Positions 46,342 through 63,868 of a stretch of DNA of 64,000 bases are shown piece by piece. Position numbers and translations under genes: made by a program. This DNA is from Kineosporia corallincola. Lineage in GTDB: Bacteria > Actinomycetota > Actinomycetes > Actinomycetales > Kineosporiaceae. The notes under the pieces were generated by a model that ran no database searches, was not told where the DNA came from, and saw only the letters and a list, made by a program, of their open reading frames with translations. The stretch is from assembly GCF_018499875.1 (NCBI RefSeq), contig NZ_JAHBAY010000001.1:62001-126000 (forward strand). Reading direction: 5' to 3'. The first letter of the stretch is position 1; each line of letters opens with the position of its first letter.

Positions 46342-47586
46342 TCAGTGCGCCACGGCGGCGGCGCCGTGCTCGTCGATGAGGGCGCCGGTGGTGAACCGGT
46401 CGAGCCCGAACGGCTCGTTCAGGGCGTGCGGCGTGCCGGTGGCGACGAGGTGGGCCATCACCCAGCCGACGGCCGGTGTGGCCTTGAAACCGCCTGTGCC
46501 CCAGCCACAGTTGATGTAGAGATTCTCGTAGGGGGTGAGGCCGATGACCGGCGAGGCGTCGGGCGTGACGTCGACGATGCCGCCCCAGGTGCGTAACACG
46601 TGGGCCCGGGCGAAGATCGGGAACAGCTCGACCGCAGCCGCCATCTGCTGCTCGATCACGTGGACCGAACCGCGCTGGCCGTAGGAGTTGTACGAGTCCA
46701 CGCCGGCGCCCATGACCAGTTCGCCCTTGTGCGCCTGGCTGACGTAGACGTGCACGTGGTTGGACATCACCACGGTGGGGTGCACCGGTTCGAGCAGCTC
46801 GGAGACCAGTGCCTGCAACGGGTGACTCTGCACCGGCAGCCGCAGGCCGAGAGTGCCGGCGAGAACCGAGGAATGGCCGGCGGCGGTCATGGCGACCCGG
46901 CCCGCGGCGATGTCGCCTCGCGTGGTGCGGACGCCGGTGACCCGGTTGCCGGAGGTGAGGAAGCCGGTGACCTCGCAGTGCTGGATCAGGTCGATGCCGT
47001 ACTGGTCGCACTGGCGGGCGAAGGCCCAGGCCACGTGGTCGTGCTTGGCGATGCCCGCACGCGGCTGATAAGTGGCGCCCAGCACCGGATAACGGGTTTC
47101 TGGCGAGACGTTGAGGATGGGGCAGACCTTGGCCACCTCGTCGGGGGTGAGCCACTCGCCGTCCACCCCGTTGAGCTGGTTGGCGTAGACCCGGCGCCGG
47201 CTGTCGCGCACGTCTTGCTGGGTGTGGGCGAGGTTGAGCACGCCGCGCTGGCTGAACAGGAAGTCGTAGTCGAGCTCTTCGGGCAGCCCTTCCCAGAGCT
47301 TGAGCGCGTGCTCGTAGATGGCCGCGCTCTCGTCCCAGAGATAGTTGGACCGGATGATGGTGGTGTTGCGGGCCATGTTGCCGCCGGCCAGCCAACCCCG
47401 TTCCAGCACGGCGACATTCGTGATGCCGTGATTCTTGGCGAGGTAGAAGGCGGTGGCCAGGCCGTGACCGCCGGCGCCGACCACGACCGCGTCGTAGGAG
47501 GGTTTCGGGTCGGTGTGCCGCCACAGGTGATCGGCGTGCTGCTGCCCGGTCTGCGCGGATCCGGCTGATGCCCCGCCAGGACGCAT
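46342..47586 (-). CDS. soxB: Sarcosine oxidase beta subunit
   Basis: The catalytic FAD/FMN subunit, 414 residues. The FAD motif [17 protein letters not shown] is at about residue 34. [11 protein letters not shown] contains the His that carries covalent FMN in Corynebacterium/Arthrobacter enzymes. The C-terminus ([28 protein letters not shown]) completes the DAO fold. The ATG at 47584-47586 has AGGGGGTG upstream. It is the first gene of the soxBDAG operon and is divergent from the GntR gene across 61 nt. Confidence 0.95.
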
Positions 47587-47612
47587 GACACCCCCTGCTG
47601 CTCGTGACCGAC

Positions 47613-47628
47613 GACTGATATATCAGTC
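47613..47628. promoter_or_regulatory. Perfect 16-bp palindrome, probable GntR operator
   Basis: GACTGATATATCAGTC is its own reverse complement. It lies midway between soxB and the divergent GntR gene and is A+T-rich at the centre, as FCD-type GntR operators commonly are. It probably controls both genes. Confidence 0.7.
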
Positions 47629-47647
47629 ATCAGCTACGGTAAGTCCC

Positions 47648-48289
47648 ATGAATTCCGGCGTCAACGGTCAACTTCGGCAGGCCGACATCGCCTACTCCGG
47701 GCTGCGCGACCTGATCGTCACGCTCGAACTGCACCCGGGCGCGGCCCTGGCCGAGGACGAGCTGATGCGGCGGCTGGAGGTGGGCCGCACCCCGTTGCGT
47801 GAGGCGGTCAAGCGCCTGGAGGTGGAGAGCCTGGTGGTGGTGTATCCGCGGCGCGGCACGTTCGTCAGCGAGGTGCACCTGGCCGACCACAGCCTGATCT
47901 GCGACGTGCGGCGGCAGCTGGAGAGTCACGCCGCCCGCCGGGCGGCCGAGCGCGCCACCGCCGCAGACCGCAGTCGGCTGGAGGGGCTGGAGGCGACCAT
48001 CGCGGCCCACGCCGGGGGCCGGGCCGCGAGCATGCGCCTGGACACCGAGATCCACCGCGAGGTCTACCGCTGTGCCCACAATCATTACCTGGAGCACGAT
48101 CTCAGTCATTACTACAACCTGTCGCTGCGCATCTGGTACCTGTTCCTCGACCGGCTGCCCGAGGTCGACCACGACGCCGAGCACCTGCCGATGATCCGGG
48201 CGATCCGGGAGGGCGACGGCGAGGCCGCGGCCGGGCACGCCCACCGGCACGTCACCCATTTCGAGGAATCGGTGCGGTCGGCGCTGTAG
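47648..48289 (+). CDS. GntR-family regulator (FadR/FCD type)
   Basis: A 213-residue regulator. The N-terminal winged helix (LRDLIVTLELHPGAALAEDELMRRLEVGRTPLREAVKRLE) ends with VVVYPRRGTFVSEV. The C-terminal FCD ligand domain has RRQLESHAARRAAERA and the metal-binding His/Asp positions (HREVYRCAHNHYLE; HAHRHVTHFEESV). The ATG at 47648 places the HTH in the usual position. The divergent position to soxB points to control of sarcosine use; sarcosine or glycine is a likely effector. Confidence 0.89.
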   Translation: MNSGVNGQLRQADIAYSGLRDLIVTLELHPGAALAEDELMRRLEVGRTPLREAVKRLEVESLVVVYPRRGTFVSEVHLADHSLICDVRRQLESHAARRAAERATAADRSRLEGLEATIAAHAGGRAASMRLDTEIHREVYRCAHNHYLEHDLSHYYNLSLRIWYLFLDRLPEVDHDAEHLPMIRAIREGDGEAAAGHAHRHVTHFEESVRSAL

Positions 48290-48467: not shown

Positions 48468-49589
48468 CTATCCGCGGTGCAGCCGGCGTTCCGGTTGCTC
48501 CGGGACGGGGGCGCCGGTCCCCGGGCGGCCAGGGGCGGCGGTGTGAGGTGGGCCGACCCGGCCGCGTCCGGCGCGTTTCGCCTCGTACAGCGAGGCGTCG
48601 GCGGCAGCGTACAGATCGCGCAACGGGGTCGGGCCGGGACCGGCGTGTCCCACGCCGATGCTGACGGACAGCGGCAGCTCGGTCCCGTCGCCCGCCAAAG
48701 GCAGCGGGTGACTCAGCACGCGGGTGAGCAGGCCCTGGGCCCAGCGGACGGCCTCGTCCGCCGGGAATTCCGGTAGCAGCACGGCCATCTCGTCACCGCC
48801 GAGCCTGGCGATCACCGCGCCCGGCGCGGCGTCGCCGCCCAGGAGCCCGGCCAGGTGCACCAGGGCGTCGTCCCCGATCGGGTGCCCGTGGGTGTCGTTG
48901 ATCGTCTTGAAATGGTCCAGATCGAGCAGGACCAGGGCGGCTCCGGCGCAGGAGCGGCCCTGGCGGGGCACCGGTGGCAGCACGGCGCGGTGCATCGCCT
49001 CGTCCAGCACCCGGCGGGTGACCAGACCGGTCAGCGGGTCGCGGGAGGCCTGTCCCTGGAGCAGCGCGACCAGCCGGTCCTGTCGTTGCCCGGCCAGCAC
49101 CAGGATGCCGGTCATCAGGCCGATCACCAGCGAGATCTGGAACCAGTCGAGCAGCCCGCGACTGTCCGGACGCAGCACGCCGACCACCAGGGCGTCGCCC
49201 ATCGAGCAGCTCACGGCCACCAGCAAGGCGCCCGGCGGCCGCAGGTGCGTGGCCGCGAACAGAGCCGGCAGGCACAACATCACCTGGGCCCCGGCCGAGG
49301 AGTCCTGGGTGGCCAGGTTCAGCGTCACCACCACCGCCAGCCCGAGGATCGGGGCGACCAGCAGCAGGACGTTCAGCCACGTGACGGGCAGCCGCCGGGT
49401 TATCAGGACCGTGGCGAGCCCGAGCAGGACCACCGGCGCGCCGAAGCTCATCGCCCGCTGGGCCGGTGACTCGGGCATGTCGAGGCTCGACAGCGGCACG
49501 GCGGCGGCGGACAGCAGGAAGATCCAGAACGCCGTCAGTGCGGCCGCTCTCGGATTCCGGGCGGCCAGCCCCGAACGCGCCCAGTCCAC
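48468..49589 (-). CDS. Membrane-bound diguanylate cyclase (GGDEF domain)
   Basis: A 373-residue protein. About six membrane segments (residues 18-195) are followed by a GGDEF domain: SRDPLTGLVTRRVLDEAM, LVLLDLDHFKTINDTHGHPIGDDAL and RLGGDEMAVLLPE. The signature is GGDEM in place of GGDEF; metal and GTP ligands are otherwise present. The RxxD inhibitory site expected before the signature is missing. The GTG at 49587-49589 lies 5 nt after the AraC stop, so the pair is probably an operon. The frame remains open far upstream inside araC on another reading, which I reject. Confidence 0.84.
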   Translation of the reverse strand: MDWARSGLAARNPRAAALTAFWIFLLSAAAVPLSSLDMPESPAQRAMSFGAPVVLLGLATVLITRRLPVTWLNVLLLVAPILGLAVVVTLNLATQDSSAGAQVMLCLPALFAATHLRPPGALLVAVSCSMGDALVVGVLRPDSRGLLDWFQISLVIGLMTGILVLAGQRQDRLVALLQGQASRDPLTGLVTRRVLDEAMHRAVLPPVPRQGRSCAGAALVLLDLDHFKTINDTHGHPIGDDALVHLAGLLGGDAAPGAVIARLGGDEMAVLLPEFPADEAVRWAQGLLTRVLSHPLPLAGDGTELPLSVSIGVGHAGPGPTPLRDLYAAADASLYEAKRAGRGRVGPPHTAAPGRPGTGAPVPEQPERRLHRG

Positions 49590-49594
49590 AAGGT

Positions 49595-50410
49595 CTACTC
49601 GGTCGGCCGGCCCGTGGACTTCAGCCCGGCGAACCGGCCGGGTGTGGTGCCCAGCATCCGGCGGAAGTGCCGGGCCAGGTGCGACTGGTCGTAGAACCCG
49701 GCCAGCACGGCCGCCCGGGCCGGGGGCTCGCCGGTCAGCAGCAGGCGTCGCGCCCGCTCCACCCGCCGCCCGGTCAGGTACTGGTGCGGGGGCATCCCGA
49801 ACTCCCGGGTGAATGCCCGCACCAGGTGGGTCGGGTGGCTGTGCAGGGTCTGCGCGGCGTCTTCCAGGGTGACGCCCTCGACCACCTGCGCGTCGAGCAG
49901 GTCGCGCAGGTCGTGGGCCAGGCCGGCCCGGTGCCCGGGCGCTGCGGGCGCGTCGCCGAGCAGCCCGAGGAAGCGTTCCCGGATCATCGCCAGCCGGCTG
50001 GCCGCCTCCAGGTTCTCGGTGCGCCGGGCCAGCGCCACGTTCAGCTGGTGCACCCGGCGGCGCAGCAGCGGGTCGGCGAAGCTCGGGGTGCGGATCGCGG
50101 CGTTTACCAGCCCCGGGCCGAACTGGGTGTCGTCGAGGTAGACCACGCGCTTGCGGAACCCGCCCGGCCCGGCCGCCTTGCCGTCGTGCGGCACACCGGG
50201 CGGCAGCAGGGTGACGAACGAGGTCATCACGCCGTGCTCGTGCCGGCCCAGGTGGTAGCGAACGATGCCGGAGTCGAGCAGCATCAGGGTCCACGTGTCG
50301 TGGGCGTGCATCGGGTAGGCGTGCCGGTGGAAGCGGGCGTGCAGCACCTCCGGCACGCCGCTCACGCCCGGTTGCCACGCCGTCAGCTCCGGCGCCCGGT
50401 CCGCCGTCAT
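49595..50410 (-). CDS. AraC-family transcriptional regulator
   Basis: A 271-residue regulator. The N-terminal cupin-like domain has MHAHDTWTLMLLDSG and a LLPPGVPHDG loop. The C-terminal tandem HTH (about 175-265) has TLEDAAQTLHSHPTHLVRAFTREFGMPPHQYLTGRRVERARRLL, read as separate motifs, and GFYDQSHLARHFRRMLGTTPGRF. The ATG at 50408-50410 is chosen; no ribosome site is visible. It is divergent from the DUF2000 gene, which it may control. Confidence 0.88.
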   Translation of the reverse strand: MTADRAPELTAWQPGVSGVPEVLHARFHRHAYPMHAHDTWTLMLLDSGIVRYHLGRHEHGVMTSFVTLLPPGVPHDGKAAGPGGFRKRVVYLDDTQFGPGLVNAAIRTPSFADPLLRRRVHQLNVALARRTENLEAASRLAMIRERFLGLLGDAPAAPGHRAGLAHDLRDLLDAQVVEGVTLEDAAQTLHSHPTHLVRAFTREFGMPPHQYLTGRRVERARRLLLTGEPPARAAVLAGFYDQSHLARHFRRMLGTTPGRFAGLKSTGRPTE

Positions 50411-50448
50411 GCCAAGAACGTACAAGAGCCGGCCCGCCGCCGGGGACG

Positions 50449-50922
50449 ATGATCAGCCGTGTGGTGACTGAATTGATGACGACGAACAGCCCCGGCGCCG
50501 ACCTGGCCCCGATCCGTTTCGACACCAAGATCGCCGTGCTGCTGCGTGACGACCTCGCCGTCTGGCAACGCCTCAACGTGTGCGCGTTCCTGGTCAGCGG
50601 CATCACCGCGGCGCACCCGCAGCTGGTCGGAGATCCCTACGAGGACGCCGACGGCACGCCCTACCTGGCCATGCTGCGCCAGCCGGTGCTGGTGTTCCAG
50701 GGCAGCGCCGACGTGCTCACGAGCGCCCACACCAGGGCCATCGGCCGGGAGCTGCCGATGTCGCTGTTCACCAGCGAGCTCTTCGCCTCCGGCAACGACC
50801 GGGACAACCGGGCCGCGGTGGCCGCGGTGCCCCGCGCCGAGCTGGATCTGGTGGGCCTGGCCGTGCACGGGCCGAAGAACGCCGTGGACAAGGTGCTCAA
50901 GGGCGCGGTGATGCACCCCTGA
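50449..50922 (+). CDS. DUF2000 family protein
   Basis: A 157-residue protein of the DUF2000 family (peptidyl-tRNA-hydrolase-like fold). It has KIAVLLRDDLAVWQRLNVCAFLVSGI near the N-terminus, and LVGLAVHGPKNAVDKVLKG at the end. Alternative starts exist at 50461 and 50476. Function is unknown. It is divergent from an AraC regulator, a frequent pairing for this family as I recall. Confidence 0.82.
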   Translation: MISRVVTELMTTNSPGADLAPIRFDTKIAVLLRDDLAVWQRLNVCAFLVSGITAAHPQLVGDPYEDADGTPYLAMLRQPVLVFQGSADVLTSAHTRAIGRELPMSLFTSELFASGNDRDNRAAVAAVPRAELDLVGLAVHGPKNAVDKVLKGAVMHP

Positions 50923-53438: not shown

Positions 53439-53453
53439 ATGCGTATGGCGCAA
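53439..53453. promoter_or_regulatory. Shared dyad, site A (upstream of dimethylglycine oxidase-like gene)
   Basis: ATGCG-TATGG-CGCAA, one mismatch from TTGCG-N5-CGCAA, 37 bp upstream of the start codon. A direct repeat GCGCAACTCG occurs at 53448-53457 and again at 53467-53476. Probable IclR-type operator. Confidence 0.6.
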
Positions 53454-53587
53454 CTCGGATCATCAAGCGCAACTCGACTGTCCAACGTCGGACGCGGTGC
53501 GTCAAGAGGCAAGTACGTGTGAAGTGCGCCGGGCGTCGTCGGGAGCTCATCGTCGTCCAAAATTGTTGCCCGGTAACGCAAACGAAA

Positions 53588-53619
53588 CCGGGGCGGCGGC
53601 CGTCAGGCCACCACCCCGG
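53588..53619 (-). terminator. Intrinsic terminator of the ABC importer operon
   Basis: A 14-bp stem with two G-T pairs around a TGAC loop, followed on the minus strand by TTTCGTTT. It lies 17 nt after the stop codon of the substrate-binding protein gene and separates it from the next gene. Confidence 0.85.
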
Positions 53620-53636
53620 AACCGTGCCGGACAGCG

Positions 53637-54608
53637 CTACTTCAGCCAGGCGTCGACCTTGTCCTGGTTGGCGTCGACCCACTTCTTGGCCGCGTCCTCG
53701 TAGTCCATCTTGTCTTCGGCGATGTACTTGGCGACCTCGTTCTGGTCGTCGTTGGTCCAGCTGAAGTTCTTCACCAGCTCGGCCGCCGCACTGCCGGAGT
53801 TCATGAACTCGGTGCGGGCGTACTTGGTCAGCGGGGTCTCCGGGTAGTCGCAGTCGACCTTCTCCGGGTCGGCGTCGCAACCCTCCTCATAGGTGGGCAG
53901 ATCCACCTTGACCAGCGGCACCTCGGACAGGAACCACTGCGGCGTGTAGAAGTAACCGAGCAGCGGCTCCTTCTTCTCCTCGGCCTGCCGGAAGGCCGTG
54001 ATCAGTGCGGCCTCACTGCCCGCGTAGACCACCTTGTAGTCCAGGTCGAGGTTCTTCACCAGGGCCTCGTCGTTGGTGACGTACGACGGGTCGCCGTCGA
54101 GCACCTGGCCCTTGTCACCCGACTCCGAGGTCTTGAACAGGTCGGCGTACTTGTTCAGGTTCTTGTAATCGGTGATGTCCGGGTACTTCTCGGCCATCCA
54201 CGGCGGCACGAACCAGCCGATCTGGCCGACATTGCCGTTCTCGCCGACCTTCTCGGCCACCTTCTGCTCGTCGACGTACTGCTTCTCCAGGTCGGGGTGG
54301 CCCCAGTCCTCGAGGATCACGTCGATCTCGCCGGAGGCGAAGCCCTGCCAGGACACCTCCTCGGTGAGGTCCTTGGTGTTCACCGTGCAGCCCAGCTCGT
54401 TCTCGGCCACGTACTGCACCACGGCGACGTCGGCCTCGTAGCCGACCCAGGGGTTGACCGCGATGTTGACGGTGCCACAGTCCTCGCCGGAACCGCCCCC
54501 CGAGCTCGCGCTGCCGGACTCGATGGTCTGACCGCCGCACCCGGCCAGGAGCAGGGCGACCGCCGCCGCACCTGTCACGACCCTCCTGGCCTTCACATTG
54601 TCACGCAA
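53637..54608 (-). CDS. Glycine betaine/choline-type ABC transporter substrate-binding lipoprotein
   Basis: A 323-residue OpuAC/ProX-family lipoprotein. The signal peptide ends in the lipobox LLAG-Cys24. The mature part has NIAVNPWVGYEADVAVVQY, DLTEEVSWQGFASGEIDVILEDWG and several Trp (WFVPPWMAEKYP; TPQWFL) of the kind that form the aromatic cage for quaternary amines. The TTG start at 54606-54608 is preferred because AGGAGG lies 9 nt upstream; a GTG is available 12 nt further in. It is the last gene of the importer operon. Confidence 0.92.
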   Translation of the reverse strand: MRDNVKARRVVTGAAAVALLLAGCGGQTIESGSASSGGGSGEDCGTVNIAVNPWVGYEADVAVVQYVAENELGCTVNTKDLTEEVSWQGFASGEIDVILEDWGHPDLEKQYVDEQKVAEKVGENGNVGQIGWFVPPWMAEKYPDITDYKNLNKYADLFKTSESGDKGQVLDGDPSYVTNDEALVKNLDLDYKVVYAGSEAALITAFRQAEEKKEPLLGYFYTPQWFLSEVPLVKVDLPTYEEGCDADPEKVDCDYPETPLTKYARTEFMNSGSAAAELVKNFSWTNDDQNEVAKYIAEDKMDYEDAAKKWVDANQDKVDAWLK

Positions 54609-54640
54609 AGCTTTTCATCCTCCTGATGATGGCTTCCAGA

Positions 54641-56590
54641 TCAGATACTGCGCCGGCGATCCGCTGCCGCCTGGGTGATTCGGTTGAGCATGATGCCCAG
54701 GATGACGATGGCGAAGCCCGCGGTGAGCCCCTTGCCGAACAGCTCTCCCTGCGAGAAGCCCGCCACCACGTCGTATCCCAGCGCGCCGGCGCCGACCAGG
54801 CCGCCGACCACGATCATCGCGAGCACGTAGCAGATGCCCTGGTTGGCCGCGAGCACCAGCGATTGCCGGGCCATCGGCAGCTGTACCTTCCAGATGGTCT
54901 GCCAGCTGCTGGATCCGGAGGCCGTGGCGGCCTCCACCGCGGTGGCCGGCACGGCGGTGATGCCGTCGGCCACGATCTTGATCGCCACCGGGGCGGCGTA
55001 GAGCACGGCGGCCAGGACGGCGGTGAACCGGCTGGCCGCGAACAGCGCCAGGAACGGCACCAGGTAGACGAACGGCGGCATCACCTGGAGCGCGTCGAGT
55101 ACCGGGCGGATCACCAGGTCGGCCCGCCGGCTGCGGGCCATCCAGACGCCGATCGCCACGCCCAGCAGCATGGTGGCGGCGGTGGCCAGCAGGGTGGCGG
55201 CCAGGGTGGTCATGCTGTCTTGCCAGAGCCCGCTGAACACCAGGCCGGCCACGCAGACGGCGGTGACCACGGTGACGCGCAGGTTGCCCAGCAGGTAGGC
55301 CAGCGCCAGCAGCAGCGCCGCGACCAGCCACCAGGGCGACTCGACCAGCAGGGTCTGGAGCGGGTCGAGCAGCAGGGCGGTGGCGGTGTCTTTCAGCCAG
55401 CCGGTGACGTCGGACAGGTTGCTGGTCAGCCAGTCGGCGAAACTGCCGCTGTGCCGGGCGATGTCGTCGCCGATGTTGTAGTCGGAGGGGAACTCGGCGG
55501 CCCACACGTAGGTGCGCGAGAGGTACACGGCGAAGATCGCCCCGAGGCCGGCCACCCCGAGCAGCGGAAGCCGGAACCGGGAGGGACGCCGGGAACGCCG
55601 GGCCGCCGCGGCGGTGGTGAGCCGGTCCAGCACGATCGCCATCACCACGATCGCCAGGCCGGCGTTGAAGGAGACGCCGACGTCGAGGGTCTGGAGCGCC
55701 TTGAGGATGGTCTTGCCCAGGCCGGGTGCGTCGATCAGCGCCGCCACCGTGGCCATGGACAGGGCCGCCATGATGGTCTGGTTCAGGCCGAGCACGATGG
55801 TGCGCGCCGACATCGGCAGCAGAACCCCGACCAGGCGCTGGAAACCGGTGGCTCCCAGCGATTCCGAGGCCTCCACGCTGGCCCGCGGCACCGAGCGGAT
55901 GCCGTGCGCGGTGTAGCGCACGGCCGGGGGCAGGGCGTAGACCAGGGTGACCAGGGTGGCCGAGGCCGGCCCGATCAGGAAGAGCAGGGTGAACGGCGCC
56001 AGGTAGACGAACGTCGGCATCGTCTGCAAAAAGTCGAGAACCGGTGTGACGACGGCGTTCACCCGGTCGGACAGGCCCGCCCAGATGCCCAGCGGCACCC
56101 CGATGACCAGAGCCAGGAGGACGGCGGAGAGGGTGAGGGCGAGCGTGTCCATGCTCTCTTCCCACAGCCCCTGGAGACCGATGAACAGGAAACCCGCCAC
56201 CACCAGCAGGGCCACCCGCAGTGTGGCGAAGGCCAGCGCCAGCAGGGTGAGGATCGCCACCACTCCGAGCCAGCCGATCACCGGCACGGGACGGCCGAAA
56301 CTCGGCTGGGAGATCAGGTTCTGGAACAGTGTGGTGAGACCGTCGACGAAGGCCCGGATCTCGTTGAAGAAGTAGAGGAACAGCGGGCTGTCGTTGCGGT
56401 TGGCCGACACCCAGTGGTTGACGTCGTTGAACCAGCGGTGTAGCGCCGTGGTGTCGGAGGGCACCAGCGAGAGCGTGTTCACGCCGCGCAGGATCGCCCC
56501 GAGCACCACGAACACCACGAGCACGGCGGCGATCACGCGCCCTCGGCCGGGTCTGGCCAGGGCCGCGCGGGAGGCGGTGAGAACGGTCAC
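54641..56590 (-). CDS. Glycine betaine/choline-type ABC transporter permease (two fused permease domains)
   Basis: A 649-residue integral membrane protein holding two ProW/OpuAB-like permease units. Each unit repeats a conserved layout: [27 protein letters not shown] and [22 protein letters not shown] in the first; [25 protein letters not shown] and [22 protein letters not shown] in the second. Most ProW proteins have one unit and dimerise, so the fusion supplies both halves. The GTG start overlaps the ATPase stop (GTGA). Confidence 0.92.
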
Positions 56591-57675
56591 CGGGCGCCCG
56601 CCACGATCGCGAGAATCTCTTCGTCGCCGACGATTCCGAGCAGTTTGCCGTTCTCGACCACCCGCACCGGGCGATGGCTCTCCAGCACCACGCGGGTGGC
56701 GTCGCGGATCACCGTGCCGGGCGGCAGCTCCGGGCCGTCGACCGGGTCGTCGTCGGTGACCGGGCGCATGATCCAGCGCAGCGTCAGCACGTCGCCCTTG
56801 GGCACGTCGGAGACGAAGTCACGCACGTAGTCGTCGGCCGGGGCCCCGACCAGCTCGTCGCCGGTGCCGATCTGTACCGGCCGGCCGTCACGCATGATCA
56901 GGATGCGGTCGCCGAGCTTGAGTGCCTCGGACAGGTCGTGGGTGATGAACACCATGGTCTTGCCCAGCTCGCGGTGCAGCCGGATGACCTCGTTCTGCAT
57001 GTCCCGCCGGATCAGCGGGTCGAGCGCGCTGAACGGCTCGTCGAACAGCATCAGGTCGGGCTCCACGGCCAGCGCGCGGGCCAGGCCGACCCGCTGCTGC
57101 ATGCCGCCGGAGAGCTGGTCGGGGTAGGAGTTCTCGTAGCCGGACAGGCCGACCAGCTCGATCACCTCCAGCGCCCGGGCACGGCGTTCGGCCTTGCCCG
57201 CGCCGCGCACCTCCAGCCCGTAGGCCACGTTGTCGACCACGCGCCGGTGGGGGAGCAGCCCGAAGTTCTGGAACACCATGGAGAACTTGTGACGACGGAG
57301 TTCACGCAGGCGCCTGGCGTCGGCCTGGAGGAGGTTCTCGCCCTCGAAGACCACCGAGCCGGCGGTCGGCTCGATCAGCCGGGTGAGACACCGCACCAGC
57401 GTGGACTTACCGGAGCCGGACAGGCCCATCACCACGAACACCTCTCCCGGCGCCACGTCGAACGAGACGTCGCGCACCGCGATGGTGTTGCCGGTGCGTT
57501 GCATCAGCTCCCGGCGGGGCAGCTCGCACAGATCGGAGTTCTTCGGCACCGCAGCGGCTTTCGGTCCGAAGACCATCCAGAGGTCGCGCACCGAGATCAA
57601 TGGCTGCTGGGTGGGGCCGGTGGTGCTGCCGGGCTCCGCGGTCAGGTCGTGGCTGTCCTCGGTGACGGCGGCCAT
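56587..57675 (-). CDS. Glycine betaine/choline-type ABC transporter ATP-binding protein
   Basis: A 362-residue ProV/OpuAA-type ATPase. Walker A is [14 protein letters not shown], the signature is [16 protein letters not shown] and Walker B is [15 protein letters not shown]-terminal CBS-like part ([19 protein letters not shown]), partly degenerate, may sense osmolarity or ionic strength. The ATG at 57673-57675 has GGAGAGGTGA upstream. First gene of the three-gene importer operon. Confidence 0.93.
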
Positions 57676-57745
57676 CGCTCACCTCTCCTGATCAATCCGA
57701 AACGGGGTCGAACGGCCCTGACGATGCCTCGAACTTGATGAAATG

Positions 57746-57760
57746 TTGCGTATGGCGCAC
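57746..57760. promoter_or_regulatory. Shared dyad, site B (upstream of the ABC importer operon)
   Basis: TTGCG-TATGG-CGCAC, with G before and AAC after (GTTGCG...CGCACAAC), 70 bp upstream of the importer start codon. Ten of its bases in a row are identical to site A. Probable IclR-type operator. Confidence 0.62.
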
Positions 57761-57942
57761 AACGGTTCTTGTTGAGGCACACACTGTGCCCAGTGCGAGG
57801 TCATGGTCAAGGTATGGCGTCGTTTCGGTGTGGTTAATCTAGCGAAGACTGAACGTACCGCTTCAGTCACTTCGCCGGATTGTGATGTGCCCGAGCGTCG
57901 ACCGATAATTCACTCTCTGTCACCATTGGCGCATCATGCGGT

Positions 57943-57991
57943 GCTGGAGGAGAGCCGTGGGGCGGAATGCACCCGGCGGTTCTCCTCCAGC
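57943..57991 (-). terminator. Hairpin downstream of betA
   Basis: A 15-bp stem (GCTGGAGGAGAGCCG against CGGTTCTCCTCCAGC, one G-T pair) with a 19-nt loop, 57 nt past the betA stop. It has no T-run. Confidence 0.55.
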
Positions 57992-58048
57992 TTGATGACG
58001 ATGGTTCGAAAGTTGTTGGAGAGGGCGCCTGTCCGGGTTATGGGCGGC

Positions 58049-59746
58049 TCAAGCCGACTGTTCGGTGCTGAGGCCGTGGCGATAAAACGGAACCTGCTGG
58101 GCCTCAAGCGGGGAATTGCCGCTGATCAGGTCGGCGGCTTTCTCGGCCAGCATGACGACCGGCGCGTAGATGTTGCCGTTGGTCACGTAGGGCATGGCCG
58201 AGGCGTCTGCCACCCGTAGCCCGGCCACCCCGTGCACGCCCATCGTCAGTGGGTCCACCACGGAGAGCGCGTCGGTGCCCAGGCGCGCGGTGCAGGACGG
58301 GTGGTAGGCGGTCTCGGCGTCGCGGGCCACCCAGTCCAGGATCTCCTCGTCAGTGCTTACCGCGGGGCCGGGGGAGAGCTCGCCGTCGTCGTAGGGGCCG
58401 AAGGCGGGCTGGCCCAGGATCTTCCTGGCCACCCGGATCGCCTCGACCCATTCCCGCCGGTCCTGGGCGGTGGACAGGTAGTTGAAGGTCATCGCCGGGG
58501 CGCGGCGCGGGTCGGTGCCGGTGATCTTGACCGTGCCCCGGGCGTCGGAGTACATCGGGCCGATGTGCACCTGGTAGCCGTGGCTGGCGGCGGGGGAGCT
58601 GCCGTCGTAGCGCACGGCCACCGGCAGGAAGTGGAACATCAGGTTGGGGTAGGCCACCTCGTCGTTGCCGCGGACGAAACCGCCGCCCTCGAAGTGGTTG
58701 GTGGCGGCCGGCCCGGTCTTGCGCAGGAGCCACTCCAGCCCGATCGCCGGGCGACGGTGCAGCTTGAGCGAGGGATTGAGCGACACCGGCCGACGGCAGG
58801 CGTGCTGCACGTAGACCTCCAGGTGGTCTTGCAGGTTCTCGCCCACGCCGGGCAGGTCGGCCACCACGTCGATGTCCAGGGCCCGCAGCTCGGAGGCGTT
58901 CCCGATACCGGACAACTGCAACAGCTGCGGGGTGTTGACGGCGCCGCCCGACAGCACGACCTCACCGGCGTCCACGCGCCGCAGGCCGCTGCCCACCCGG
59001 CCGAGCGGACCGCCGAAGGGCAGGGAGCGGGTGTACTCCACCCCCACCGCCCGGCCGTTCTCCACGATCACCCGGTGCACCAGCGAAAGAGTGCGCACCG
59101 TGAGGTTTTTCCGCTGCTTGCGGGCCGGGTGCAGATAGGCCCGCGCCGCCGACAGCCGCCGGCCGTTGCGGATCGTGCGGTCGAACCGGTTGAAACCCTC
59201 TTGCTGGAAACCGTTCACGTCGTCGGTGAGGGGGTAGCCGGCCTGCTGCACCGCCTCGAAGAAGGCGCCGAACAGCGGGTTGGTGGCCGGGCCGCGCTCC
59301 AGCTCCAGCGGGCCGTCGCCGCCGCGCCACTCGTCCGGTCCGGCCAGGCAGTTCTCCATCTTCTTGAAGTAGGGCAGGCAGTGCGCGTAGTCCCAGGTCT
59401 GCATGCCCGGGTCGGCGCCCCAGCGCTCGAAGTCCAGCGGGTTGCCGCGCTGGAAGATCATCCCGTTGATGCTGGAGGAGCCGCCGAGCACCTTGCCCCG
59501 ACCGTGCGAGATCCGCCGCCCGTGCATGAAGGGCTCCGGCTCGCTGCGGTACCGCCAGTCGTACAACGGATTACCGATGACCATGGTCAGCGCGGCCGGC
59601 ATGTGGATGAGCAGGTCGAGAGCCCAGTCCGGCCGCCCCGCCTCCAGTACCAGCACCGAGGTGCCGGGATCTTCGCTCAGCCGGTTGGCGAGCACACAGC
59701 CGGCGGAACCGCCGCCGACGATGACGTAGTCGTACCGCTCCACCAC
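58049..59746 (-). CDS. betA: GMC-family oxidoreductase, choline dehydrogenase-like
   Basis: A 565-residue flavoprotein. The FAD fold is [22 protein letters not shown], followed by the GMC signature [17 protein letters not shown] and the second signature near [22 protein letters not shown]. The catalytic His is in [13 protein letters not shown], and the C-terminal [19 protein letters not shown] is typical. It is predicted to oxidise choline to betaine aldehyde, supported by the divergent betB gene. GTG at 59744-59746 (or the next GTG) has AGGAGG upstream. Other GMC alcohol dehydrogenases cannot be excluded by sequence alone. Confidence 0.87.
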
Positions 59747-59791
59747 GTGTACCTCCTGGCTGACCCGAGGTGGCGTTTCCGCCTACCATCG

Positions 59792-59806
59792 TTGCGTCTT
59801 GCGCAC
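59792..59806. promoter_or_regulatory. Shared dyad, site C (betA/betB divergent promoter)
   Basis: TTGCG-TCTTG-CGCAC in the 117-nt gap between the divergent betA and betB genes, 45 bp from betA and 57 bp from betB. Probable IclR-type operator for both. Confidence 0.6.
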
Positions 59807-59863
59807 CGAGTTCCAGACAAAGCAACGGCCACAGTGAATCATCACGATTGGTGAGGGGTCCAG

Positions 59864-61393
59864 ATGTCTTCTGCGGATCATCAGCTCGCGGTCGGCGCCG
59901 ACGGCACGCCGACCGTCGCCGGGACGCTCTTCATCGACGGGTCGTGGGTCAGGTCGACCGGGTCCCGCGCGGTGCTGAATCCCGCTGACGGAAGCCGGAT
60001 CTGCGACGTCGACGAGGCCACGGACGACCATGTGAAGGCCGCGGTGGCGGCTGCCCGGACGGCGTTCGACGAGGGCGTGTGGAGCTCTGCCCCGCCCTCG
60101 GAACGCAGTGCCGTGCTGCACCGGGTCGCCGATCTGCTCCAGGCCGACCGCGCCCTGATCGCCCGTATCGAGACGCTCGACACCGGAAAGACGCTGCGCG
60201 AGAGCGAGATAGATGTCGACGACGTGACGGCGGTGTTTCGTTACTATGCCGCCCTCGCGCTCGGCGAGCCGGGAAGGCTGGTGGACGCGGGGGACCCGGC
60301 CGTCGTCAGCCGGGTGGTGCACGAGCCGGTCGGGGTCTGTGCGCTGATCGGCCCGTGGAACTATCCGCTGCTCCAGATCTCCTGGAAGATCGCCCCGGCC
60401 CTGGCCGCGGGCTGCACGGCGGTGCTGAAACCCAGTGAGGTCACGCCGCTCACCACCATCGTCCTGGTCGGGTTGCTGCACGAGGCCGGGGTGCCGGCCG
60501 GGGTGGTCAACCTGGTGCTCGGTTCCGGCGCCGTTGCGGGGGCCGGGCTGGTGAGCAGTGAGGACGTCGATCTGGTCTCGTTCACCGGCGGTCTGGAGAC
60601 CGGGCGCGCCATCATGCGCAGCGCCGCCGACACGGTGAAGAAGGTCGCGCTGGAGCTGGGCGGAAAGAACCCGAACATCGTGTTCGCCGACGCCGACCTG
60701 GAGGCGGCCCTCGACACCGCGCTGACCGCGGTGTTCCTGCATGCCGGGCAGGTGTGCTCGGCGGGCACCCGGCTGATCCTCCAGGACTCGATCCACGACG
60801 AGTTCGTGGCCGCCTTCGTGAAGCGGGCCGGGCGGATCCGGATCGGCCCGGGCCTCGACCCGGACTCCGAGATGCCCCCGCTGGTCTCGGCCCAGCACCT
60901 GGCCAAGGTGGAGAATCATGTGCGGGTGGGCCTGGCGGAGGGCGCCCGGCTGCTCACCGGCGGCTCCCGTCTCGCCGAGAATCAGAGTGGATATTACTAT
61001 CGTCCAACGGTTTTCGTTGACTGCTCGGGCGACATGCGGATCGTGCAGGAAGAGACCTTCGGGCCGATCGTCACGGTCGAGCGGTTCACCACCGAGGAGG
61101 AGGCGGTGCGGCTGGGCAACGACACCCGCTACGGCCTGGCGGGCGGGGTGTGGACGTCCGACCGGGCCAGGGCGCACCGGGTGGCCGGGCGTCTGCGGCA
61201 CGGAACGGTCTGGATCAACGAGTTCGGGCCCTATCTGCCGCAGGCCGAGTGGGGCGGGTTCAAGCTGTCGGGCACCGGGCGCGAGCTCGGGCCCTCGGGT
61301 CTGGCCGAATATCAGGAGGCCAAGCACGTGTACGAGAACACCGCCCCGGCGGCCCAGCACTGGTTCTCCGGCGACGCAAAAAGGATTCCGTGA
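59864..61393 (+). CDS. betB: Betaine aldehyde dehydrogenase
   Basis: A 509-residue NAD(P)+-dependent aldehyde dehydrogenase. It has the cofactor segment IGPWNYPLLQISWKIAPALAAGC, the catalytic Glu in LELGGKNPNIVF and the catalytic Cys in AGQVCSAGTRL. The KPSEVTPLTT motif is present. It oxidises betaine aldehyde to glycine betaine, inferred from family and from the divergent choline-dehydrogenase-like gene. The ATG at 59864 has GAGGGG upstream. Confidence 0.92.
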   Translation: MSSADHQLAVGADGTPTVAGTLFIDGSWVRSTGSRAVLNPADGSRICDVDEATDDHVKAAVAAARTAFDEGVWSSAPPSERSAVLHRVADLLQADRALIARIETLDTGKTLRESEIDVDDVTAVFRYYAALALGEPGRLVDAGDPAVVSRVVHEPVGVCALIGPWNYPLLQISWKIAPALAAGCTAVLKPSEVTPLTTIVLVGLLHEAGVPAGVVNLVLGSGAVAGAGLVSSEDVDLVSFTGGLETGRAIMRSAADTVKKVALELGGKNPNIVFADADLEAALDTALTAVFLHAGQVCSAGTRLILQDSIHDEFVAAFVKRAGRIRIGPGLDPDSEMPPLVSAQHLAKVENHVRVGLAEGARLLTGGSRLAENQSGYYYRPTVFVDCSGDMRIVQEETFGPIVTVERFTTEEEAVRLGNDTRYGLAGGVWTSDRARAHRVAGRLRHGTVWINEFGPYLPQAEWGGFKLSGTGRELGPSGLAEYQEAKHVYENTAPAAQHWFSGDAKRIP

Positions 61394-61423
61394 GGATACA
61401 CCTCAGAACAGGGCCAGCATACG

Positions 61424-61437
61424 GTATCGTCCGATAC
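61424..61437. promoter_or_regulatory. Inverted repeat GTATCG-TC-CGATAC
   Basis: A perfect 6-bp dyad with a 2-bp centre, 31 nt after betB and about 110 bp before the TAGCGT hexamer (61547-61552) that may serve as -10 of the following low-G+C gene. Possible operator; no regulator can be assigned. Confidence 0.4.
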
Positions 61438-61597
61438 ATGCGACTTTGTGACGATATCGCTGCTCTATCTAACAAGCGATGTTCGGTCAACTTGGGCAGT
61501 GAGGTTGATTAAGATCATGTTTGTGGAAATCGGCGCCTTGTGTTGCTAGCGTGACTTCTTGTGAGGCCGTGGGGCCTCGCTTTGAGGGGAGTTCGCT

Positions 61598-62458
61598 TTG
61601 CGCGTCACGAGCAATGGTATTCGTCTGAGTGCATTCGTTTCTGGTGCACTGTTGGTCAGTGTAGTAATTGGTGGGGCGGGAGCGGGAAGTGCGTACGCCG
61701 ATAATCGATCGGGTGTCGTTGATGATGTTCAGTCAATCATCCGAGCCGAGACGGGCGATAATGCAAAATTAGTGACGAAAAAGATTTCTTCTAGCGGTAT
61801 TTCGGTTCAGAAGGCAACCTCCGATTCAGGGGAAGTGGTTGACACTTATATTCAGAAGGAAGATGCTGAAGAAGGCGGTGGTGTCTCGGTTTTTGCAGTT
61901 CTGGATGATGGGCAGGATTCCGCCAGGTTCTCAAACCTTCTGAATGAAGGATTGAGCTTCAAGTTGTCCGAAGGAGGCGGCCTGGCTGTGATTGACGAGC
62001 AGGGTCAAGCTGTCGGAGTGGTCGAAGCTCCCTGGGCTCGGGATGCGGCTGGTGTATCACTCCCCACTTCGTATCGGCTTGATGGAAATGACATCGTGCA
62101 AGACGTGGATACGACGAACGCGGTGTTTCCAGTAGTTGCTGACCCCAGTCTTTCCATTGGTCTTAATGGTGCCCTTCCGGTGTACAAGGTGAAATTCACG
62201 TGGACCGAAACGAATAAGATCAAGAAGCTCATGGATGACAGTACTACTGCGGTGGCCATTGGTTCGGCCTGTGGTCTCATCGGAAACAACCTCGCCAAGG
62301 CTGCGTGCGCAACCGGTGGAACTGCTGCTTTCAGCGGTTTTAAGAGCAAGGTGAATAGTGCGATCAAGAACAAGAAGTGCGTGCGGCTGATGATTCCGTA
62401 TGGTCTTCCTGTGCAGACCGTAGGATTCGGGGTTGACACTGTGAAGTGCTCCTCCTGA
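61598..62458 (+). CDS. Secreted hypothetical protein of low G+C composition
   Basis: A 286-residue protein of unknown function. A signal peptide (LSAFVSGALLVSVVIGGAGAGSAYA, likely cut before Asp36) leads into a region of VxSV/D-rich strands, an Ala/Pro-poor middle with VFPVVADPSL near residue 180 (a short segment also seen in other actinobacterial exported proteins), and a C-terminal domain with four Cys (GSACGLIG, KAACATGG, NKKCVRLMI, VKCSS). Codons such as ATT, AAA, TCT and GTA are frequent, unlike all neighbours. The TTG at 61598 is preceded by GAGGGGAG. It ends at a strong terminator. It looks transferred or recently acquired. Confidence 0.7.
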   Translation: MRVTSNGIRLSAFVSGALLVSVVIGGAGAGSAYADNRSGVVDDVQSIIRAETGDNAKLVTKKISSSGISVQKATSDSGEVVDTYIQKEDAEEGGGVSVFAVLDDGQDSARFSNLLNEGLSFKLSEGGGLAVIDEQGQAVGVVEAPWARDAAGVSLPTSYRLDGNDIVQDVDTTNAVFPVVADPSLSIGLNGALPVYKVKFTWTETNKIKKLMDDSTTAVAIGSACGLIGNNLAKAACATGGTAAFSGFKSKVNSAIKNKKCVRLMIPYGLPVQTVGFGVDTVKCSS

Positions 62459-62532
62459 TCTGATCATGGGTCTTTCAAAGTGAGGCTCGGCCGTCACTGA
62501 TCTATCATCAGCTTCTGACAGTTGAGTACGCC

Positions 62533-62563
62533 CGGTGCGCCGTCCTCCAGGGGCGGCGCACCG
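62533..62563 (+). terminator. Intrinsic terminator of the low-G+C secreted protein gene
   Basis: A perfect 10-bp stem CGGTGCGCCG/CGGCGCACCG with an 11-nt loop, followed by TTGTTTTGTT on the plus strand. Confidence 0.88.
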
Positions 62564-62606
62564 TTGTTTTGTTCACATCATGGACGACGAAACACCGCCG
62601 ACATGT

Positions 62607-63404
62607 TTAGCGTCGGTAAAATCCCAGCCGCGCGCTGATTTCCGCACCACCCTCGATCAATTTCCCGGCAACGTGCCCGAATGAATCCGGGGTGAGCCGG
62701 AACGACGGGCCGGAGGCGCTGACCGCCGCGATCACCCGCCCGGCACCGTCACGGATCGGAGCGGCCACCGCGGTCAGCCCGACCTCCAGCTCCTCGTTCG
62801 TGGAGGCCCAGCCCCGCTCGGCCACCTCGGCCAGCTCCCGCAGAAACTGGTCGGCGTCGGTGCGGGTGTTGTCGGTCAGGCGCTCCAGCCCGGCCGCGAG
62901 CACGCTCTTACGCACCGGCTCCTCGGCGTGGGCCAGCAGCACCTTGCCGCTCGACGTGGCGTGCAGCGGGGTTCGCCGTCCGATCCAGTTTCTCGTCATC
63001 ACGGACGCATTTCCGTACTCCTGCAACACATTCACGGCCGACTCGTCGTCCATGATCGCAATGTTCACGGTCTCGCCGAGCTCGTGGGCGAGCCGCTCGC
63101 AGACGTCCCGGCCCTCCCGGCTGACCTCCAGCCGGCCGGTGGTGGCGGCGGCCAGCCGCAGGATGCCGAGGCCCAGGCGGTACTTGCCGCGATCGCCGAT
63201 CTGGTGCACCAGATCGCGCCGTTCCAGGGCCGTCACCAGGCGGAAGGCAGTGGACTTGTGCACCGCCAGCTCGGCGGCCAGTTCCGTCACTCCGAGCTCA
63301 CCGCGGCGGGCGAGCAGATCGAGCACCAGCAGCGCGCGATCGACGGACTGCACCTGTGAGGCGTCGCCTCCGGCGCGGGTCGTCTCCCCCATGGACGAAA
63401 CCAT
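62607..63404 (-). CDS. IclR-family transcriptional regulator
   Basis: A 265-residue IclR regulator. The N-terminal winged helix (about 18-85) has SVDRALLVLDLLARRGELGVTELAAELAVHKSTAFRLVTALE. The effector domain has RTPLHATSSGKVLLAH and GWASTNEELEVGLTAVAAPIRD. The ATG at 63402-63404 is used; a second in-frame ATG is 12 nt further in. It is divergent from the Rieske gene, with dyad D between them, and is the natural candidate to bind all four dyads. The ligand is likely a betaine-pathway intermediate (inference). Confidence 0.9.
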   Translation of the reverse strand: MVSSMGETTRAGGDASQVQSVDRALLVLDLLARRGELGVTELAAELAVHKSTAFRLVTALERRDLVHQIGDRGKYRLGLGILRLAAATTGRLEVSREGRDVCERLAHELGETVNIAIMDDESAVNVLQEYGNASVMTRNWIGRRTPLHATSSGKVLLAHAEEPVRKSVLAAGLERLTDNTRTDADQFLRELAEVAERGWASTNEELEVGLTAVAAPIRDGAGRVIAAVSASGPSFRLTPDSFGHVAGKLIEGGAEISARLGFYRR

Positions 63405-63481
63405 AGCTCCCCACCAGTAACTCCGTTATGTCTTGACGCATCCCCCGATGGGCCGCACGCTGTTGCTCATCGCACGTCGCG

Positions 63482-63496
63482 TTGTGCAAGGCGCAA
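63482..63496. promoter_or_regulatory. Shared dyad, site D (iclR/Rieske divergent promoter)
   Basis: TTGTG-CAAGG-CGCAA; with flanks it reads GTTGTGC...GCGCAAC, a 17-bp dyad with one mismatch. On the other strand it is GTTGCG-CCTTG-CACAAC, aligning with sites B and C. It lies 77 bp from iclR and 36 bp from the Rieske GTG start. Confidence 0.62.
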
Positions 63497-63532
63497 CAAT
63501 GACTCCGTTTTTCGTTTGAGATGAGGCCTGCC

Positions 63533-63868
63533 GTGATTCGGGTCTGTGCGGTCGGGGACATCCCCGAGGGTGAGGCGATCAGGGTCGAGAACGGGCCCAC
63601 AGGCGTCCCGATAGCGGTGTTCAACGTCGGTGGTAGCTATTACGCCATCGATGACACCTGCACGCATCAGGACGCGTCGCTGGCGGACGGGTACCTGGAG
63701 GAAGAGGCCTGCGCGGTCGAGTGCCCGCTGCACGCCGCCTGCTTCGACCTGCGTACCGGGGAGCCCAGCGGGCCGCCCGCGCGGGTGCCGGTGCGCACGC
63801 ATGTCGTGGTAGTCCAGGGCGGACAGGTGTTGGTGCAGTTGCAGGCGGCCGGCACGCCGATCGCCTGA
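63533..63868 (+). CDS. Rieske [2Fe-2S] ferredoxin
   Basis: A 111-residue stand-alone Rieske ferredoxin, similar in type to the ferredoxin components of ring-hydroxylating dioxygenases. Cluster ligands are Cys43 and His45 (CTH) and Cys64 and His67 (CPLH). It carries electrons from a reductase to an oxygenase. The GTG at 63533 is preferred because GAGG lies 6 nt upstream; an ATG at 63521 would add four residues. The FAD reductase gene begins 27 nt downstream. In this setting it may serve a glycine betaine or related demethylase encoded beyond the window. Confidence 0.88.
   Translation: MIRVCAVGDIPEGEAIRVENGPTGVPIAVFNVGGSYYAIDDTCTHQDASLADGYLEEEACAVECPLHAACFDLRTGEPSGPPARVPVRTHVVVVQGGQVLVQLQAAGTPIA

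Follow-up and report, generated by a model that had tools for sequence, protein, structure and literature searches.

In the actinobacterium Kineosporia corallincola, four near-identical dyads of the form TTGCG-N5-CGCAA lie in the promoters of a gene cluster for choline and glycine betaine catabolism. The DNA analysed, referred to here as 'the window', is a stretch of 64,000 nucleotides (contig NZ_JAHBAY010000001.1, positions 62,001 to 126,000). The dyads precede dmgO, encoding a dimethylglycine oxidase; an importer operon; the divergent genes betA and betB, for choline dehydrogenase and a betaine-aldehyde dehydrogenase; and another divergent pair, iclR, encoding a regulator of the IclR family, and the gene for a Rieske ferredoxin. 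The repeated dyad is a real feature of this DNA. We consider it very probable that the dyads are the operators of one choline/glycine betaine regulon, that they are read by the adjoining IclR-type repressor, and that a compound of the pathway releases it.

At up to one mismatch, the window contains exactly four matches to TTGCGNNNNNCGCAA, each deviating at one position (Table 1). A pattern scan of the window places all four precisely where the initial annotation, made from the sequence alone, had reported them, and it bears out the statement that there are no others, since a fifth match at this tolerance is absent. Dyads with two mismatches were rejected as a signal: the window contains 18 matches at up to two mismatches against 34.6 expected in shuffled sequences, and so the looser form is not enriched. 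The GC content of the window is 70%. The whole genome (8,202,634 bases) contains 96 dyads at up to one mismatch, and 123 matches to the reversed pattern used as a control. At the genome rate of 96, four in 10 kb are therefore unusual; the Poisson probability of four in 10,058 bp is 7.3e-6 for one fixed interval, and approximately 0.006 when multiplied by the 815 intervals of that length. The pattern was selected after the sites had been seen, and for this reason the relatives and the tandem spacing weigh more than the clustering statistic.

The initial annotation described lone 15-bp dyads. This stands for the importer; at the three other promoters the operator is a 34-bp tandem pair, in which the dyad is accompanied by a degenerate second dyad 19 bp away. 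The partner matches at 7 of 10 half-site positions at betA/betB and at 6 of 10 at both dmgO and iclR/Rieske, and the best that the importer offers at this distance is 4 of 10. Across the Kineosporia genomes, 18 of 23 sites have a partner of at least 6/10 at 19 bp; over the remaining offsets from 10 to 45 the number never exceeds 7. In other genera the figures are 41 of 51 hand-listed sites, and at most 5 elsewhere over the same offsets; the hand list was compiled after several partners were already visible, and the test is repeated by the automatic matrix scan described below. A pattern drawn from the known pairs, TTGC-N16-TGYG-N5-CRCA, has three matches in the 8.2-Mb genome, precisely at the three tandem operators described here (control, 0), and 21 in six Kineosporia genomes, 18 of them in the cluster and three elsewhere (controls sum to 13). 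In its full form the site is a palindrome of 17 bp, approximately GTTGCGYAWTRCGCAAC, as judged from 54 distant sites; its outer G, which lies outside the matrix, is conserved to 85% in these sites, and the Kineosporia sites have it at 37 of 46 outer positions.

The sites are conserved in relatives that keep the genes. Among the 20 orthologous promoters of five other Kineosporia genomes, 18 have a site at up to one mismatch and 19 at up to two. The iclR/Rieske operator is present in all six genomes. Of the ten half-site columns, the numbers invariant among the six are 10 at iclR/Rieske, 9 at dmgO, 10 at betA/betB and 4 at the importer; the last figure is low because of one genome (G003), where the site has been lost to a small deletion. 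Of the remaining columns, 58 of 91 (iclR/Rieske), 58 of 221 (dmgO), 51 of 101 (betA/betB) and 73 of 176 (importer) are invariant.

Beyond the genus, a matrix built from Kineosporia sites only was applied to 56 loci (963,308 bases), 36 of them chosen by their IclR gene and 20 by a gene for the glycine betaine monooxygenase GbcA; some of the genomes are near-identical, and related genomes are counted more than once. At 13 bits or above, 73 sites were found against 6 in the reversed sequence, and at 19 bits or above, 21 against none. The 19-bp spacing recurs: 40 of the 73 sites have a partner (at least 5 bits) at 19 bp, 6 have one at 18 bp, and no other distance from 8 to 60 has more than one. 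At 15 bits or above there are 56 sites, and a simple gene caller, which assigns 84% of bases to coding sequence, places 42 of them in intergenic DNA. Two genomes of a single genus (f22, g44) have tandem dyads 18 bp apart, in L175 (3692/3710, 3821/3839 and 9575/9593) and L185 (12000/12018); the IclR proteins of the two pair as sisters in the tree (95/76), and three further loci of the same genus (L170, L176 and L177) have the 19-bp spacing. The GbcA loci of ten genomes with no IclR match at 1e-70 were considered as a negative control and rejected, because nine carry an IclR protein of 42-51% identity in the stretch examined.

The genes behind these promoters cover uptake of choline or betaine and successive steps of its breakdown (Table 1). 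The dmgO protein, scanned without its first residue, scores 1011.7 bits against the N,N-dimethylglycine oxidase of PDB entry 1pj5. The importer is of the OpuAC/ProV type, and its substrate-binding protein reaches 71 bits with ABC_choline_bnd, under the cut-off of 379. The permease is a one-chain fusion of two ProW/ChoW-type permease domains, and the fused protein is found near full length in several further genera as well as in the rest of Kineosporia. The enzyme that converts betaine to dimethylglycine was missing from the enzymes listed in the initial annotation; the GbcA-like gene sits beyond the window. Since a reductase and this GbcA-like oxygenase come after the Rieske gene, the step is probably encoded in that gene run. 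Against the GbcA profile the oxygenase scores 217 bits (E 2.9e-64), under the 670-bit cut-off. Between betB and iclR lies a predicted protein of 286 residues (61598-62458, +) with a signal-peptide-like start, as judged by eye, and no Pfam family. Elsewhere in the window, two overlapping frames (48468-50606 and 49595-50425, both -) give matches to a diguanylate cyclase (GGDEF) and to an AraC-type regulator.

Table 1. Dyads, operators, promoter-like boxes and genes of the cluster (window coordinates unless a genome or locus prefix is given)
Feature	Position	Strand	Remarks
Dyad, dmgO promoter	53439-53453		ATGCGTATGGCGCAA; one mismatch from TTGCG-N5-CGCAA
Dyad, importer promoter	57746-57760		TTGCGTATGGCGCAC; one mismatch from TTGCG-N5-CGCAA
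Dyad, betA/betB	59792-59806		TTGCGTCTTGCGCAC; one mismatch from TTGCG-N5-CGCAA
Dyad, iclR/Rieske	63482-63496		TTGTGCAAGGCGCAA; one mismatch from TTGCG-N5-CGCAA
Operator of dmgO	53439..53472	-	Dyad 53439-53453 and degenerate dyad 53458-53472, exactly 19 bp apart
Operator of importer operon	57746..57760	-	Single dyad; best 19-bp partner 4/10
Operator between divergent betA and betB	59792..59825	.	Dyad 59792-59806 and degenerate dyad 59811-59825
Operator between divergent iclR and Rieske gene	63463..63496	.	Degenerate dyad 63463-63477 and dyad 63482-63496
Putative promoter boxes, TTGACG-N17-CACGCT	63433..63461	+	Directly before Rieske gene operator; invariant in six Kineosporia
Putative promoter boxes, TTGACG-N17-GACAGT	53477..53505	-	Directly before dmgO operator
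Putative promoter boxes, TTGACC-N18-CAGTGT	57781..57810	-	20 bp before importer dyad
GntR-type protein	47585-48289		Within 16 kb of the sites
AraC-type regulator	49595-50425	-	Within 16 kb of the sites
dmgO, FAD/folate dimethylglycine oxidase, 822 aa	50933..53401	-	ATG at 53401; Pfam DAO, FAO_M, GCV_T, GCV_T_C
Importer, OpuAC-type substrate-binding protein	53637..54608	-	Pfam OpuAC
Importer permease, 649 aa	54641..56590	-	TIGR03416 twice, above cut-off; PF00528 twice
Importer ATPase, betaine/proline/choline type	56587..57675	-	TIGR01186, 355 bits (cut-off 327); ABC_tran
betA, choline dehydrogenase	58049..59746	-	TIGR01810, 793 bits (cut-off 732)
betB-like betaine-aldehyde dehydrogenase	59864..61393	+	Best family TIGR01804, 598 bits, under cut-off 669
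IclR-family regulator, 265 aa	62607..63404	-	Likely reader of the operators; Pfam IclR_C, HTH_IclR; adjoins sites
Rieske ferredoxin	63521..63868	+	Profile matches; opens likely betaine monooxygenase operon running past the window
Ferredoxin reductase, past the window	G000:C1:125896-127137		Next in Rieske gene run
GbcA-like oxygenase, past the window	G000:C1:127211-128344		Best family glycine betaine monooxygenase GbcA
Tandem operators before mycothiol-dependent formaldehyde dehydrogenase	L202:4344-4376, L203:4459-4491		

Where the sites lie with respect to the genes bears on how they might act. The bases between site and start codon number 37 for dmgO, 70 for the importer ATPase, 45 for betA, 57 for betB, 77 for iclR and 24 for the Rieske gene, so that the range of 36-77 bp given in the initial annotation fits the first five (37-77) and fails for the last. 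Promoter-like boxes, located with a loose -10 pattern, precede three of the operators, and at two of these the operator pair begins just past a TTGACx-N17-xAxxxT element, by 4 bp at dmgO and by 1 bp at the Rieske gene. A carrier gene of the BCCT type in a related genome (G005), discussed below, has TTGACA-N17-AACTGT with its last base overlapped by the operator. Because the operators stand directly past these boxes, binding at dmgO or the Rieske gene would hide the transcription start and repress the gene. A spacing of 19 bp would set the half-sites off from each other by approximately one turn of the helix, and two dimers, forming a tetramer, could then sit on one face of the DNA. Release of the IclR protein by a pathway compound, be it choline, betaine or dimethylglycine, would switch on uptake through the importer and oxidation of choline to betaine by BetA and BetB; it would also switch on conversion of betaine to dimethylglycine by the Rieske ferredoxin, the reductase and the GbcA-like oxygenase, and the next demethylation by DmgO. 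We take repression that a compound of the pathway relieves to be the likeliest mode of action. As ligand we favour betaine or dimethylglycine, because dmgO and GbcA are common partners of the IclR gene in other genera.

The same protein on the same operators could instead be an activator, or a repressor at some promoters and an activator at others. Such regulators exist in the IclR family, according to the main text of Suvorova and Gelfand (2021; PMC8222616), and two of the promoters would accommodate one: the importer dyad lies 20 bp past its -10-like box, and for betA/betB no promoter was recognised. The operators of dmgO, the Rieske gene and the G005 carrier gene, however, follow the putative -10 box by 4 bp or less, a position from which a bound protein would block RNA polymerase, and we regard activation or dual action as unlikely.

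That the reader is the IclR protein itself is suggested by several observations. It has an IclR-family helix-turn-helix and effector domain, both above cut-off (PF09339, 48.1 bits; PF01614, 135.9 bits); its weaker Pfam matches are to MarR, MarR_2 and HVO_A0261_N, and neither an AraC nor a TetR family is among them. Its gene is, as first described, the only one of its kind in the window: of 14 homologues in the genome at E<=1e-10, one falls within C1:62001-126000. Of the remaining 13 homologues, seven have no site of at least 11.5 bits in their loci. Among 394 sampled genomes of the class, 46 have an IclR relative (E<=1e-70) and 48 have GbcA, and the two occur together in 38, a count uncorrected for kinship.

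A different factor might bind the dyads, with iclR as one target among several. The GntR-type and AraC-type proteins in the window are both encoded no more than 16 kb from the sites, and all four Kineosporia loci that extend far enough past dmgO (L055-L058) retain the AraC-type gene. In proteobacteria, moreover, betaine genes are controlled by GbdR, of AraC type, and BetI, of TetR type. Against this, homologues of the IclR protein occur in 57 of 64 loci, those of the GntR-type protein in 7 and those of the AraC-type protein in 4. Many of these loci were selected by their IclR gene, three genomes appear twice and most loci end short of the AraC-type gene; because of the selection, the duplicates and the retention of the AraC-type gene in L055-L058, the count is supportive rather than proof. 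The form of the dyad and a tandem spacing of 18-22 bp are, in addition, IclR traits in the main text of PMC8222616, and another factor seems to us quite improbable. That a short palindrome was simply picked by chance from 64 kb has a negligible probability, even with a genome-wide count (96) no higher than its control (123) and no enrichment of looser matches in the window, and is refuted by the relatives (19 of 20 orthologous promoters), the distant loci with their fixed 19-bp partner, and the tandem search, which confines the paired form to the cluster in this genome.

Some relatives extend the regulon beyond the cluster. A scan of the six Kineosporia genomes with TGCGYMWKRCGCA gave 9 matches in the K. 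corallincola genome, three of them in this cluster (control, 5). In the relatives, seven of 45 out-of-cluster matches, picked for their likeness to the preferred bases, were examined. Two lie before a BCCT gene (G005 and G001); the other five fall within predicted genes, including a 23-bit dyad without a partner (L153) and one just past a predicted start (L149). A weaker site precedes the G004 orthologue, and all three BCCT sites have a 19-bp partner. The carrier's best NCBIfam equivalog is the betaine BCCT, under its cut-off. G003 has an orthologue without a site, and the carrier has no match in G002. The orthologue in K. corallincola (G000:C9:150015-151736, L160) is 86% identical, with one in-frame TAG over the match.

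The tandem pattern also occurs upstream of the gene for S-(hydroxymethyl)mycothiol dehydrogenase, a mycothiol-dependent formaldehyde dehydrogenase, in the sister species G002 and G005 (TIGR03451, 684 bits, cut-off 512.9). In the four other Kineosporia genomes this promoter has at most degenerate half-sites, and we therefore take the operator in the sister species to be one evolutionary event. The link fits the pathway because demethylation of its compounds yields formaldehyde units. A third unlinked tandem match (G001:C1:167729) lies within a gene and is taken as chance. The claim of a local regulon joining choline uptake, oxidation and demethylation is well supported as to the joining, given the conserved promoters, the recurrence with IclR relatives and enzymes, and the IclR-like form and spacing; in relatives with BCCT or formaldehyde dehydrogenase sites, 'local' does not hold. 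In K. corallincola itself, 15 out-of-cluster sites were examined (L139-L147 and L154-L158, with a second in L140), six from the TGCGYMWKRCGCA pattern, eight chosen from the listed matches at up to one mismatch and the fifteenth seen in L140. Most are within predicted genes, and three are at or near predicted starts (L140:3804, L143:2999 and L146:1869). None of those examined at 11.5 bits or above has a 19-bp partner, and the tandem search covered the whole genome.

Several results weigh against an IclR regulon of this kind. The second dyads are individually weak, being equalled at 9 (dmgO), 2 (betA/betB) and 7 (iclR/Rieske) of 184 other offsets; the importer operator is a lone dyad, and is the one gone from G003; and neither betA nor betB has a recognisable promoter box. 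The BCCT orthologue of K. corallincola has no operator, and its formaldehyde dehydrogenase gene has a degenerate site only. Outside the genus, sites occur at one of 25 BCCT and one of 30 formaldehyde dehydrogenase promoters (controls, 0/25 and 1/30), and a general operator of these genes outside the genus was rejected. The sole distant formaldehyde dehydrogenase match is a copy within a betaine cluster (L241), and the sole BCCT match (G007, L253) comes from the same family; among the promoters scanned are further in-cluster copies that have no site (L242, L247, L248 and L259), and by coordinates 8 of 41 formaldehyde dehydrogenase matches fall in IclR or GbcA loci. Among the distant sites of at least 15 bits, 14 of 56 lie within genes by the simple caller. 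No site of at least 13 bits was found in 7 of the 36 IclR-centred loci (L092, L099, L100, L107, L108, L112 and L113) or in 5 of the 20 GbcA-centred loci (L174, L178, L186, L187 and L189). L100 lacks one in spite of having dmgO, GbcA, ferredoxin, reductase and an IclR protein of 47% identity, from which we conclude that the operator code has probably drifted in some lineages. Finally, a rule in the main text of PMC8222616 holds that His27 of the helix-turn-helix prefers G/C at motif positions 10/22; the residue here is His by alignment, and the motif has T/A.

On balance we lean, by a modest margin, towards a wider reading: an actinobacteria-wide and probably old IclR regulon, in which one tandem 19-bp operator code serves the route from choline through betaine to dimethylglycine, and which in some lineages also covers the BCCT carrier and the mycothiol-dependent formaldehyde dehydrogenase. 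Paralogues in Saccharothrix and Actinophytocola may compete for the same sites. In a tree of 64 IclR proteins, the paired IclRs of these clusters fall in two separate clades, with fork support of 100/99 for the first three paralogues and 99/96 for the clade to which the second three belong, and both have nearly the same recognition helix. In two of these loci (L047 and L048), dyads at up to two mismatches lie just before both iclR genes, and in a third (L049) before the first only. The operator offers a concrete code by which to assign a function to an IclR subfamily present in 46 of the 394 genomes. In some species it ties the clearance of formaldehyde, by the mycothiol-dependent dehydrogenase, to the demethylation of betaine that produces it, and the pair of operator and regulator might be of use as a sensor of choline or betaine. 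Among the papers listed in searches of an open-access library, we saw no description of a regulator of the actinobacterial betaine route; subscription journals, databases and supplements may hold one.

The control of betaine catabolism has been worked out in proteobacteria, where choline and betaine genes answer to GbdR (AraC type) and BetI (TetR type). The logic is shared, catabolic genes being switched by compounds of the pathway, but the protein families are unrelated to the IclR regulator here, and an assignment of the latter to either type was rejected, its Pfam scan containing no AraC or TetR family. Its best NCBIfam match, nearly full length, is BhcR (IclR family, NF045644); with 170.7 bits against a curated cut-off of 350, it was rejected as a BhcR equivalog. 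The closest likeness in form is to group 1 of the IclR family as described in the main text of PMC8222616, in which the words 'betaine' and 'choline' do not appear. The palindromes of that group follow GKTYCRYW3-4RYGRAMC, and GTTGCGYAWTRCGCAAC agrees with GTTYCRYW3RYGRAAC at 15 of 17 positions, a palindrome of the GTT-11-AAC type; the difference is the fourth base of each arm, G here and Y in the consensus. According to the same text, 94 of 181 groups bind tandem palindromes 18-22 nt apart, an arrangement ascribed to tetramers that bind the DNA from one side; the 19 bp at three of our four promoters falls in this range. Site centres there are mostly 20-80 nt before the start codon, and the regulator usually controls itself and adjacent operons, as the operator at iclR's own promoter suggests here. 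TphR of Comamonas, a regulator for terephthalate (motif TTTTTGCGCATAGCGCAAAAA, PMC8222616), has the identical TTGCG-N5-CGCAA core; compared by motif alone, the two differ in flanking bases, and their pathways differ also. Set beside these systems, the choline/betaine regulon of K. corallincola is a gene switch of a familiar IclR kind.

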